DNA from: Halobacterium salinarum DSM 3754 | GTDB taxonomy: Archaea > Halobacteriota > Halobacteria > Halobacteriales > Halobacteriaceae | NCBI RefSeq assembly: GCF_008124605.1 | Contig: NZ_VRYN01000003.1 | Coordinates: forward strand, 62,001 to 126,000 | Length of the DNA stretch: 64,000 bases | Direction of reading: 5' to 3' | Shown here: one piece after another, positions 29,918-33,997 of the stretch | Layout of the letters: the number at the start of each line of letters is the position of its first letter | How positions within the stretch are numbered: position 1 is the first letter of the stretch | Notes under the pieces: generated by a model | What the model was told of the DNA's origin: nothing | Database searches by the model: none | Seen by the model: the letters and a program-made list of their open reading frames with translations, nothing else | Program-made: the position numbers and the translations under genes

Positions 29918-30400
29918 ATGACACTCGACGGGCTCGACGACCTCGACCGAACGATCCTACACGCACTCCAGCGGGACGCCAGAAGCACGTCCTCCCAGGA
30001 CATCGCCGACGAAGCCGACGTATCGGCGAGCACCGTCCGCAACCGCATCGGACGCCTCGAAGAACGCGGGATTCTGACCGGCTACCACGCCGACGTGGAC
30101 TACGAACAGGCGGGCTATCAGTTGTACACGCTCATCGTGTGTACGGCACCGGTGCCACAGCGTGAGGAGCTGGCGGCGGCGGCCGTCGACGTGCCCGGCG
30201 TGGTGCGCGTCGAAGAGGTGATGACCGGGACGGAGAACATCCACGTGTTCGCCGTCGGGGCCGACAGTGACGACCTCAGCCGGATCGGCCGCGATCTCGA
30301 CGAGTTGGGCCTGGAGGTCGCCGATGAGGACCTCATCCGGAGCGTACACGCGGGACCGTTCGATGGGTTCTCGACACCGTCTGCAAACGATACTGAATAA
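29918..30400 (+). CDS. Lrp/AsnC-family transcription regulator
   Basis: A 160-residue protein with an N-terminal winged HTH (LDDLDRTILHALQRDARSTSSQDIADEADVSASTVRNRIGRLEERGIL) and a C-terminal RAM ligand-binding domain (YTLIVCTAP ... VPGVVRVEEVMTGTENIHVFAVG). Such proteins bind amino acids and control transport or metabolism genes. The downstream genes on the same strand are a TrkA-N protein and an amino acid permease, which are natural targets. The long A/T-rich gap after it contains a likely operator. Confidence 0.9.
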   Translation: MTLDGLDDLDRTILHALQRDARSTSSQDIADEADVSASTVRNRIGRLEERGILTGYHADVDYEQAGYQLYTLIVCTAPVPQREELAAAAVDVPGVVRVEEVMTGTENIHVFAVGADSDDLSRIGRDLDELGLEVADEDLIRSVHAGPFDGFSTPSANDTE

Positions 30401-30429
30401 TATACTCTCTCTTTGGGACGGAATAGCAG

Positions 30430-30455
30430 ATAATGCGGTTATTTTATATAGTTTT
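30430..30455 (+). promoter_or_regulatory. Promoter with inverted repeat before the TrkA-N/permease genes
   Basis: ATAATGCGGTTAT, an ATAA/TTAT inverted repeat, sits at 30430-30442 directly before the TATA box TTTTATATAG. Transcription from it would begin near 30477, leaving a leader of about 30 bases before the ATG at 30508. The repeat overlapping the promoter suits an operator for the neighbouring Lrp protein. Binding is inferred. Confidence 0.45.
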
Positions 30456-30507
30456 GTCCCCACCGATGGGATAGGCGGCGAACCCGGACCGACGCCGCAC
30501 ACCACCC

Positions 30508-30972
30508 ATGCCCGACACCACAACCACGGCCGACACGCCGACACACGCACCGACGGCCGTCATCGGTGGCGGCCACACCGGCCACGAGGTCGCCACACGA
30601 CTGCTCGCGTACGACTCCCCCGTCACACACATCACGACCAGCCCACCACCGGCCGACACACCGGACTCACTCACCGTCCACGTCGTTCCCGCCCTGGACG
30701 GCACCGCCCTCCGCGCCGTTCCTGGTGACCGGCCACACACGGTCGTCGTCATGTGCGTTGACGACGCCAACTCCCTGCTGGTCGCGCAACTCGCCCGCAG
30801 CCGGCTCGATCCCACCCACCTCATCGTCCACATCACCACACCGTCACGATCCCCCGCGTTCGAACGTCTCGACGCCGACATCATCACCACCCCGCACGCG
30901 CTCGCGGCCGCCACCGTCGACTCACACCCGGCCCCGCGAGCCAGCACCCACCACAGCAATGAAAACGCTTGA
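30508..30972 (+). CDS. Lone TrkA-N (RCK-like) Rossmann-domain protein
   Basis: A 154-residue protein made of a single nucleotide-binding domain: AVIGGGHTGHEVATRLL, then DDANSLLVAQLARSRLDPTHLIVHITTPSRSPAFERLDADIITTPHALA, which follows the TrkA-N consensus (dinucleotide loop, D-NL--A-LAR, F--LGAD-VI-P). There is no TrkA-C domain. The ends are rich in Thr, Pro, Ser and His. Its last 14 bases overlap the start of the amino acid permease, so the two are translationally coupled. A role as a soluble gating or regulatory subunit of that permease is inferred. Confidence 0.75.
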   Translation: MPDTTTTADTPTHAPTAVIGGGHTGHEVATRLLAYDSPVTHITTSPPPADTPDSLTVHVVPALDGTALRAVPGDRPHTVVVMCVDDANSLLVAQLARSRLDPTHLIVHITTPSRSPAFERLDADIITTPHALAAATVDSHPAPRASTHHSNENA

Positions 30973-33145
30973 GCGAGACCTCGGCCTCGGCGCGGTGTTC
31001 GCGATCAGCGTCGGCGCAATGATCGGCAGCGGCATCTTCATCCTGCCGGCGCTCGCGCTCAAAATGGCCGGCCCGGCGGTCATCGTGGCGTACCTGCTGG
31101 CCGGCCTGCTCGTCGTCCCGGCCGCCCTCTCGAAATCCGAGATGGCGACCGCGATGCCGGAAGCCGGCGGCACCTACATCTACATCGAGCGCGGCATGGG
31201 GCCGCTTCTGGGCACCGTCGCCGGCGTCGGCACGTGGTTCTCGCTGTCGTTCAAAAGCGCGCTCGCACTCGTCGGCGGCGTCCCCTACCTCGTGTTGCTG
31301 TTCGACCTCCCCGTCCAACCCGTGGCGCTCGGGCTCGCGGCCCTCCTCATCGTCGTGAACCTGCTCGGTGCGAAACAGACCGGTCGGCTCCAAACCGTCA
31401 TCGTCTCGCTCATGCTCGCCGCGCTGGGGTGGTTCGTCGCCGGCAGCGCCGGCCAGGTCCAGCAGGCGAACTTCCAGGGCTTTTTGACCGGCGGCTGGGA
31501 GGGGCTGCTGGCCGCCACCGGACTCGTGTTCGTCTCCTACGCGGGCGTCACGAAGGTCGCCAGCGTCGCCGAGGAGGTCGAAAACCCCGACCGGAACCTC
31601 CCGCTCGGCATCCTCGGCTCGCTTGCGTTCACCACGCTGCTGTACGTCGGCATCGTCGCCGTGATGGTCGGCGTCACGGACTCCGGTGCCGTCGCCGGCT
31701 CGGCCACCCCGGTCGCCGTGGCCGCCGACGCCACCCTCGGCACCGCCGGCGTCTACGCCGTCATCGCCGCCGCGGTGCTCGCGCTCGTCTCCACCGCCAA
31801 CGCCGGCATCCTCTCCTCGTCGCGGTACCCGTTCGCGATGAGCCGCGACCAGCTCGCGCCACCGACGTTCGCCGAGATCCACGACCGCTTTGGCACACCG
31901 ACGACGGCCATCACGCTCACCGGCGCGGTCGTCCTCGCGCTCATCGCGTTCGTCCCCATCCTCGACATCGCGAAGCTCGCCAGCGCCTTCCAGATCCTCG
32001 TGTTCGTGCTCGTGAACCTCGCGCTGGTCGCGTTCCGCACCGGCACCACCGACTACGACCCCGACTTCGAGTCGCCGCTGTACCCCTGGATGCAGGGCTT
32101 CGGCGTGCTCAGTGGGCTGGCGTTGCTCACGCAGATGGGGTGGGTCCCGATCGCCGGCGCGGCCGTCATCACGCTCGGCAGCGTCGTCTGGTACCGCGTC
32201 TACGCCCGGCCTCGCGTCCGCCGCGAGGGCGCTGCGACGGACGTGGTGCGACGGCGGCTGGGCCGCGATGTGCTGACCGAGACCGAAGCCCTCGTCGACG
32301 CCACCGGGGCCGAGGCGGGTGGCCCAGAGGTACTGGTCGCGCTCACCCGTGAGGCCAGCGCCGACCGCGAGCGCGCGCTGCTCTCGCTGGCTGCTGACCG
32401 CGCCCGAAACGAGGACGGGCAGGTCGTCGTCGTCCGGTTCGACGAGGTGCCCGATCAAGCACCCCTCGACCACGCCGCCGACGTGCAGTCGCCGGCCGAC
32501 GTACGCTTCGAGGAGCGCACCGAAGGGCTCTCCACGGAGTTCGACGTCGACATCACGTACGGCGAAGTCGTCAGCCACGACACCAAACGCGCCATCCTGA
32601 ACGTCGCCGAGCAGCGCAGCGTCGACACGGTTGTCGCCGAGCACGAGCGACTGCGGCTGCGTTCGCGGCTGCTCGGCGACCCCATCGACTGGGTGGTGCG
32701 ACACGCCCCCTGTGACGTGTTGCTCGTCGAGAACCGGGGCTACGACGCCCCACAGAACGTCGTGCTTGAGGGCGACGGCGGCCCCTACGATCCCGCGACC
32801 GTCGCCGTCGCCGACGCAGTCGCCGGCGCAGCCGGCGGCACCGTGACCCTCCAGTTCCCGCTGTCCGCGGACCACCCGGACAAACGCCAGGAGACCGTCC
32901 ACGCCTACCAGGACGAGCTCGCCGGCCTGCTGTCGGCACCGGTCAGAACCGCCGACCTCCGGGCGGACGGCGGCGACCAGACCGCCCCCGACCTGGTCGT
33001 CCGGACGGGCGCTCACCGCCGCGTCCGAGGCGGCCGCGGCAGCCACACCCAGACCGCCGCCGACTGCACCGAACTCACGGTCTACCCCCACGAGTCCCGC
33101 CAGCCAGGTCTGCTGCGGCGGCTCGCCGAACGACTCGTGTTCTGA
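30959..33145 (+). CDS. APC-family amino acid permease with C-terminal USP domains
   Basis: A 728-residue fusion. Residues about 10-420 form an amino acid permease with 12 predicted helices; the first holds the substrate-binding GSGIFILPALAL motif, followed by EMATAMPEAGGTYIYIERGMG. The C-terminal 300 residues are cytoplasmic and contain universal-stress-like domains, e.g. EVLVALTREASADRERALLSLAA and HAPCDVLLVENRG. Fusion of permease and USP is known in haloarchaeal cationic amino acid transporters. The ATG at 30959 lies inside the end of the TrkA-N gene. Substrate is not clear. Confidence 0.9.
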   Translation: MKTLERDLGLGAVFAISVGAMIGSGIFILPALALKMAGPAVIVAYLLAGLLVVPAALSKSEMATAMPEAGGTYIYIERGMGPLLGTVAGVGTWFSLSFKSALALVGGVPYLVLLFDLPVQPVALGLAALLIVVNLLGAKQTGRLQTVIVSLMLAALGWFVAGSAGQVQQANFQGFLTGGWEGLLAATGLVFVSYAGVTKVASVAEEVENPDRNLPLGILGSLAFTTLLYVGIVAVMVGVTDSGAVAGSATPVAVAADATLGTAGVYAVIAAAVLALVSTANAGILSSSRYPFAMSRDQLAPPTFAEIHDRFGTPTTAITLTGAVVLALIAFVPILDIAKLASAFQILVFVLVNLALVAFRTGTTDYDPDFESPLYPWMQGFGVLSGLALLTQMGWVPIAGAAVITLGSVVWYRVYARPRVRREGAATDVVRRRLGRDVLTETEALVDATGAEAGGPEVLVALTREASADRERALLSLAADRARNEDGQVVVVRFDEVPDQAPLDHAADVQSPADVRFEERTEGLSTEFDVDITYGEVVSHDTKRAILNVAEQRSVDTVVAEHERLRLRSRLLGDPIDWVVRHAPCDVLLVENRGYDAPQNVVLEGDGGPYDPATVAVADAVAGAAGGTVTLQFPLSADHPDKRQETVHAYQDELAGLLSAPVRTADLRADGGDQTAPDLVVRTGAHRRVRGGRGSHTQTAADCTELTVYPHESRQPGLLRRLAERLVF

Positions 33146-33220: not shown

Positions 33221-33997
33221 ATGGACGCCGACGAGCCCGAGATTCTCGTGACGAACGACGATGGTATCGACGCACCGGGCATCCGCGCCCTCGCCGACGG
33301 CCTCGACGCGGTTGGCAACGTCACCGTCGTCGCGCCCGCGGACAACCAAAGCGCGACGGGGCGCGCGATGTCCCAGGAGGTCGCCGTCCACGACCACGAC
33401 CTCGGATACGCCGTCGAGGGGACGCCCGCGGACTGCGTGGTCGCCGGGCTGGAGGCGCTCGGCCCGTACCCCGACCTCGTGGTGTCGGGCGTGAACGAGG
33501 GCGGGAACCTCGGGATGTACGTCCTCGGGCGCTCGGGCACCGTCAGTGCGGCCGTCGAAGCGGCGTTCTTCGGCGTGCCCGCGATCGCAGTCTCGATGTA
33601 CATGCGCGAGGAGCAGTTCGGCGAGCCGACCGCAGTCGCCGACTACGAGCACGCCGTCGACGCCACCACACACCTCGCACACGACGCCGTCACCGACGGC
33701 ATCTTCGACACCGCTGACTACCTGAACGTCAACGCCCCCCACCCGGACGCCGACGCCACCGGCGATATGGTGGTCACCCGTCCCTCCCACGCCTACGATA
33801 TGACCGCCGCCCAGACCGGCGACACGGTCACGCTGTACGACCGCCTCTGGGAGGCGATGGCCGCCGGCGACATCCACGACCCCGACGGCACCGACCGCCG
33901 CGCCGTCCTCGACGGCCACGTCTCCGTCTCGCCGCTGACCGCCCCGCACTCGACGGAACACCACGACGCACTCGACGGGATCGCCACGGAGTTCTGA
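33221..33997 (+). CDS. surE: 5'/3'-nucleotidase SurE
   Basis: A 258-residue metal-dependent phosphatase for nucleoside monophosphates. It opens ILVTNDDGIDAPGIRALA, whose Asp-Asp pair binds metal. VVAPADNQSATGRAM (the Asn ligand) and VVSGVNEGGNLGMYVLGRSGTVSAAVEAAFFGVPAIA are further SurE signatures. A CTTTCG box lies about 25 bases before the ATG. It is convergent with the possible microgene at 34004-34163. Confidence 0.95.
   Translation: MDADEPEILVTNDDGIDAPGIRALADGLDAVGNVTVVAPADNQSATGRAMSQEVAVHDHDLGYAVEGTPADCVVAGLEALGPYPDLVVSGVNEGGNLGMYVLGRSGTVSAAVEAAFFGVPAIAVSMYMREEQFGEPTAVADYEHAVDATTHLAHDAVTDGIFDTADYLNVNAPHPDADATGDMVVTRPSHAYDMTAAQTGDTVTLYDRLWEAMAAGDIHDPDGTDRRAVLDGHVSVSPLTAPHSTEHHDALDGIATEF

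Follow-up and report, generated by a model that had tools for sequence, protein, structure and literature searches.

Within the 64,000-nucleotide stretch of Halobacterium salinarum DSM 3754 DNA that was analysed as a whole (the window), three genes lie close together on the + strand: lrp (29918-30400), encoding an Lrp/AsnC-type regulator of 160 residues, a gene for a 154-residue protein (30508-30972) and a gene for a 728-residue APC permease with a USP-like tail (30959-33145, ATG at 30959), with surE next in line at 33221. ORF coordinates and Pfam matches agree with the original prediction on this layout: the 154-residue product contains a TrkA-N domain only, its gene overlaps the permease-USP gene by 14 nt (30959-30972, + strand), and an Lrp regulator gene stands just before it. 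The lrp product has HTH_24 and HTH_AsnC-type Pfam matches, and no match to an AsnC ligand domain was found among the 25 of 33 families listed.

The 154-residue protein matches TrkA_N (PF02254) at 7.9e-11, above the cut-off, over residues 17-129, and has no Pfam match to TrkA_C, which sets it apart from the two-domain TrkA/KtrA type. AlphaFold2 predicts a Rossmann fold (mean pLDDT 91.4), and the PDB neighbours of the model are mostly RCK/KTN proteins, with TM1088A (2g1u, 3l4b) among the best. A profile built from 43 TrkA-N sequences matches TrkA (3.5e-29), TM1088A (4.2e-21) and KefC (1.7e-10). By profile match and predicted fold the protein is a member of the RCK/KTN N-domain group.

The permease matches AA_permease (2e-44), AA_permease_2 (1.1e-42) and, over residues 458-590, Usp (5e-12); it also matches the TIGR00909 amino-acid transporter model at 3.7e-73, yet below the curated cut-off. 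Its best sequence match is the CAT homologue GkApcT (5.5e-48), which is also the best match of the modelled membrane domain (residues 1 to about 420), with 28% identity and a TM-score of 0.82 by target length. All 44 aligned permeases share the TM1 residues G23, S24, G25 and F27. By sequence and membrane fold the protein groups with the CAT-type APC amino-acid transporters, including a GSGIF-type TM1, and its substrate is presumably an amino acid. In a profile alignment the TM5 Lys of GkApcT, a residue that matters for proton coupling in ApcT/GkApcT, lines up with a Met. The modelled tail forms two USP-like lobes (residues about 457-591 and 600-709), only the first of which is detected by Pfam, and the canonical ATP-binding motif of USP, G2xG9xG(S/T), occurs in 0 of the 44 aligned permeases. 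A 57%-identical APC-USP permease is encoded at L214, in a MAG labelled Bacteroidetes bacterium QS_3_64_15, reflecting mis-binning or transfer.

The 107-bp gap between lrp and the TrkA-N gene (30401-30507, + strand) contains a promoter-like block conserved over 14 aligned loci (consensus about GCAGAaAaT.cggTta.TTTATgc; agcagataatgcggttattttatatag in the window), which we take to be the BRE/TATA of a haloarchaeal promoter. Inside this block lies the inverted repeat ATAA-TGCGG-TTAT (30430-30442), through which Lrp had been proposed to control the genes. The repeat itself exists, and is the sole match in the window to the exact pattern ATAA-N5-TTAT (0 in shuffled sequence), a pattern chosen after the repeat had been seen; when any 4-nt arms with spacers of 3-8 nt are allowed, the gap holds three inverted repeats. 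None of the 13 other aligned loci retains the 30430-30442 repeat at the homologous position, and an unconserved repeat within a conserved promoter-like block provides no evidence for an Lrp site; a functional site at 30430-30442 was therefore rejected, and the proposed route of Lrp control is not supported. A sigma-70 promoter and terminator scan was set aside as uninformative for archaea. A palindrome-like sequence, ATATTCCTTATAT, occurs just after lrp in 5 of the 14 aligned loci (L034, L035, L038-L040) and is absent from the window.

Of 392 genomes from the order, 240 encode relatives of the APC-USP permease (E <= 1e-150). The non-random set of loci that was read comprised the 30 best matches and 79 hand-picked from further down the list; 110 loci were taken and 109 were distinct after removal of L142 as a copy of L036, a second G193 copy having been left out. 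With an HMM iterated on this same locus set, 64 of the 109 loci have a TrkA-N gene directly upstream of the permease and on its strand (truncated in three of these, L052, L068 and L117), as do 44 of the 80 loci that come from named records. The two genes share a 4-nt ATGA overlap in 29 of the 64 paired loci, and in the independent annotation of RefSeq a Halocatena marina plasmid carries an NAD-binding protein gene overlapping an amino acid permease gene by 4 nt, with an Lrp/AsnC gene divergent. Conservation of the pair in other haloarchaeal genomes, the check suggested for the original prediction, is thus confirmed, and the observation holds and reaches further than first stated. Among the closest relatives the TrkA-N frame stops about 67-77 nt before the permease, so that the 14-nt overlap is particular to the lineage of the window, overlaps being common in other clades. 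Fusion of TrkA-N to the APC-USP permease was seen in none of the loci read. A chance overlap or spurious ORF is ruled out by the conservation, the ATGA coupling and the dN/dS values given below.

The TrkA-N gene is absent from the remaining 45 of the 109 loci, among them L036 and L042 from the window's own genus, where lrp directly precedes the permease, and remnant-like matches are present at L109 (7.5e-4) and L101 (0.026). Of the 109 loci, 85 have an Lrp homologue close to the permease, which reads in the same direction in 40 and the opposite way in 45; among the 64 paired loci lrp is divergent in 26 and not found in 8. With TrkA-N missing at 45 loci and Lrp near at 85, the core pair is Lrp and permease, and TrkA-N is an optional member that has been repeatedly lost; its absence from so many loci also means that transport by the permease does not need it. 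At L121, L125, L127 and L129 the gap between lrp and the TrkA-N gene is unusually long and seemingly holds an extra short, similar frame starting with ATG.

Estimates of dN/dS indicate that the TrkA-N gene is real and loosely constrained, evolving under purifying selection in most lineages: values are 0.18-0.48 in 19 of 20 close pairs and 0.73 in the pair that includes the window. The partners give 0-0.28 (Lrp, 19 pairs) and 0-0.20 (permease, often compared over only the first ~100 codons). TrkA-N diverges much more quickly than its partners: between the window and G107 the TrkA-N proteins are 38% identical and the partners 85-87%. The 95% bootstrap intervals for the window copy (0.48-1.09, 0.52-1.16 and 0.60-1.33) all include 1, and upper bounds for other Halobacterium copies (L034 against L035 and L041) are 0.87 and 0.97, so constraint may be relaxed in the window's lineage. 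The window protein also forms the longest branch in its clade (0.84 vs 0.61 for G107) and is unusual in composition, with fewer acidic residues and more T, H and P.

Nucleotide-binding residues are unevenly retained across the family. GxGxxG is kept in 33 and an Asp at the end of beta-2 in 34 of 61 full-length TrkA-N copies; the window copy keeps GGGHTG and the near-invariant core residues D86, L90, L91 and Q94, and where beta-2 ends it has T instead of the acid. PMC4380455 describes AMP binding by TM1088A through the glycine motif and Asp37, and PMC11150392 describes a KefC RCK dimer that docks on the transport module when AMP is bound. Judged by these precedents and by the residue counts, nucleotide sensing is plausible in about half of the lone TrkA-N family. 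Nucleotide gating by the window copy, a central element of the original prediction, is doubtful, because the copy has lost the beta-2 acid, the ATP motif is missing from the USP part and the dN/dS intervals of the copy include 1; in the form claimed, this element is not supported.

The lone TrkA-N type is also found beside a different transporter. Among the matches listed for 195 genomes, 20 frames are shorter than 200 aa, of which 18 adjoin the permease and 2 adjoin a PF00999 cation/proton antiporter. A separate search found this antiporter in 57 of 392 genomes, and in 30 antiporter loci that were read TrkA-N stands directly before the antiporter in 5 and the same Lrp type before it in 11. 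In RefSeq annotation a Natrinema plasmid has Lrp followed by an NAD(P)-binding protein and then a cation:proton antiporter, while a Haloprofundus plasmid has an NAD(P)-binding protein followed by an antiporter. Lone TrkA-N genes directly before a PF00999 antiporter were noted at L301, L302, L303, L306, L307, L361 and L362, on chromosomes and plasmids alike, mostly accompanied by the same Lrp type; by analogy they look like a split Kef-like arrangement. In a tree of TrkA-N sequences, the proteins linked to antiporters branch among those linked to the permease, the lone clade having moderate support (0.72). A helper of this kind beside both a permease and an antiporter suggests, at the level of gene order and phylogeny, a swappable control subunit for transporters. 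No lone-type TrkA-N was seen outside the order among the matches listed from a sample of 196 genomes of the phylum, the frames of those matches being at least 217 aa.

The analysis also covered 40 further Lrp loci, which were hand-picked. In a parallel arrangement at L298, beside an Lrp locus, an APC permease without USP is followed three bases on by a gene for a 220-aa protein with TrkA_N and TrkA_C. This second permease has relatives in 34 of 195 genomes (E <= 1e-120), and in all 30 loci read (L331-L360) a TrkA-type gene comes directly after the permease on the same strand, split over two frames in L336; the window's own genome holds such a pair (L349, G000:C8:24550-25968). An Lrp match was found in only 2 of the 30. 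A further TrkA gene is often present upstream in these loci, in divergent orientation. By analogy, this second family is the strongest support for the proposed RCK control of amino-acid permeases.

On this basis the lone TrkA-N protein is probably, by a modest measure, a regulatory subunit of RCK/KTN type that acts in trans on the amino-acid permease. The two proteins would be produced together through translational coupling, after which a soluble dimer of the single-domain RCK/KTN protein would dock on the permease from the cytoplasmic side and modulate its activity in trans, in the manner of the RCK domains fused to KefC-type antiporters; TrkA-N would then serve as an optional tuning subunit. 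Of these steps we infer all that go beyond co-expression, including complex formation, the ligand and the sign of regulation. The separate RCK-like subunit of the original prediction is thereby retained in part: gene coupling in 64 of 109 loci and related RCK genes beside other transporters speak for it, and coupling of RCK genes to the permease and to other transporters is as predicted for a trans-acting subunit, but the subunit is optional rather than obligatory.

Other readings of the small gene and its partner can be weighed against the same data. TrkA-N might sense nucleotide, redox or ion state in the cytoplasm on behalf of Lrp or of some other transporter, and be a passenger in the operon that does not contact the permease. 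An Lrp relative is indeed the partner common to permease and antiporter loci, and L226 (G147) holds an Lrp/TrkA-N pair with no recognised transporter adjoining; however, the TrkA-N gene overlaps the start of the transporter gene (ATGA in 29 of 64) also where lrp is divergent or not found, and the second APC family has its TrkA gene directly downstream with Lrp rarely near, which makes this reading improbable. We consider it more improbable still that the permease really moves potassium, like KimA, or cations with chloride, like the CCC family, with the RCK gene an ordinary part of a potassium system. The best structural matches of the whole-length permease model, twin USP-like tail included, are the NKCC1/KCC cotransporters, a likeness that we read from the models as one of architecture (an APC fold with such a tail) and not of close sequence kinship. 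At the sequence level the KCC matches span only about 186-416 and that to NKCC1 about 26-240, both weak and far poorer than the CAT match, and cation-chloride cotransporter identity was rejected; KimA identity was likewise rejected, its weak match (9.6e-6) covering residues 48-331 and leaving out TM1, the segment in which four residues are invariant. GkApcT as best match in sequence and in the membrane domain and the sub-threshold TIGR00909 match point away from such a transporter.

Of more weight, though still unlikely, is that TrkA-N is a subunit elsewhere and is decaying in the window's lineage, where it would survive as a nearly unconstrained, still-open remnant. Its dN/dS is not different from 1, its branch length, composition and lost beta-2 acid fit such a course, and loss is common, as seen in the gene's absence from L036 and L042, the truncated copies and the remnant-like matches. 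Yet the frame is intact across the whole domain, the four core residues are present, GC3 is high (0.81 vs 0.56 for GC2) and the predicted fold is confident, though helped by its alignment.

The preferred reading of TrkA-N as a trans-acting subunit could extend further, and it may well be, with a chance a little short of even, that haloarchaeal RCK/KTN proteins are separate, interchangeable regulatory subunits of amino-acid permeases, found as lone TrkA-N before APC-USP, as two-domain TrkA after APC, and as the lone type swapped onto a cation/proton antiporter. Work on RCK/KTN domains has dealt with their control of K+ channels, K+ uptake systems and cation antiporters, and haloarchaea maintain very high internal K+. 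If the reading holds, RCK control would reach past K+ and cation transport to nutrient uptake and amino-acid transport would be linked to the cytoplasmic ion or nucleotide state, letting haloarchaea adjust the uptake of amino acids to ion or energy state. If amino-acid permeases do have an RCK partner acting in trans, the switch would be a general plug-in for secondary transporters. The natural paired (64/109) and unpaired (45/109) versions make the subunit idea directly testable.

In an open-access literature search no description of a TrkA-N/APC-USP permease pair was recognised, and no assay of amino-acid transport by the window permease was met. In the portions of the articles available, PMC3924187 mentions TrkA-N and a permease together, but as separate proteins, PMC5992828 concerns a different TrkA composite, and PMC8229911 deals with Lrp proteins carrying TrkA_C and not with an lrp/TrkA-N/permease cluster.

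Among the closest known systems is TM1088A of Thermotoga maritima, which PMC4380455 describes as a PF02254 protein (about 16 kDa) that likewise stands alone, is encoded beside its partner and acts as a separate gating subunit. In that system the partner, TM1088B, is an RCK protein of two domains, and a Trk K+ transporter forms the membrane part; the window locus, by contrast, has no second RCK gene next to it and pairs the lone protein with an APC permease that carries USP-like lobes. In KefC-type CPA2 antiporters, as described in PMC11150392 and PMC2920069, RCK likewise controls a secondary transporter and not a channel; the window system differs in having its RCK domain in trans, a different transporter fold and partly lost nucleotide residues. 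The membrane domain is held in common with GkApcT/CAT (5oqt, 6f34), to which the window permease adds the twin USP-like tail and the RCK partner, with Met at the TM5 Lys position. The nearest relatives of the lone TrkA-N group are the C-terminal TrkA-N domains of haloarchaeal NhaP-like antiporters (e.g. L002, in the window's own genome), which it joins with a node support of 0.98; unlike the window protein, these domains form one chain with the transporter, and a further C-terminal part comes after them.
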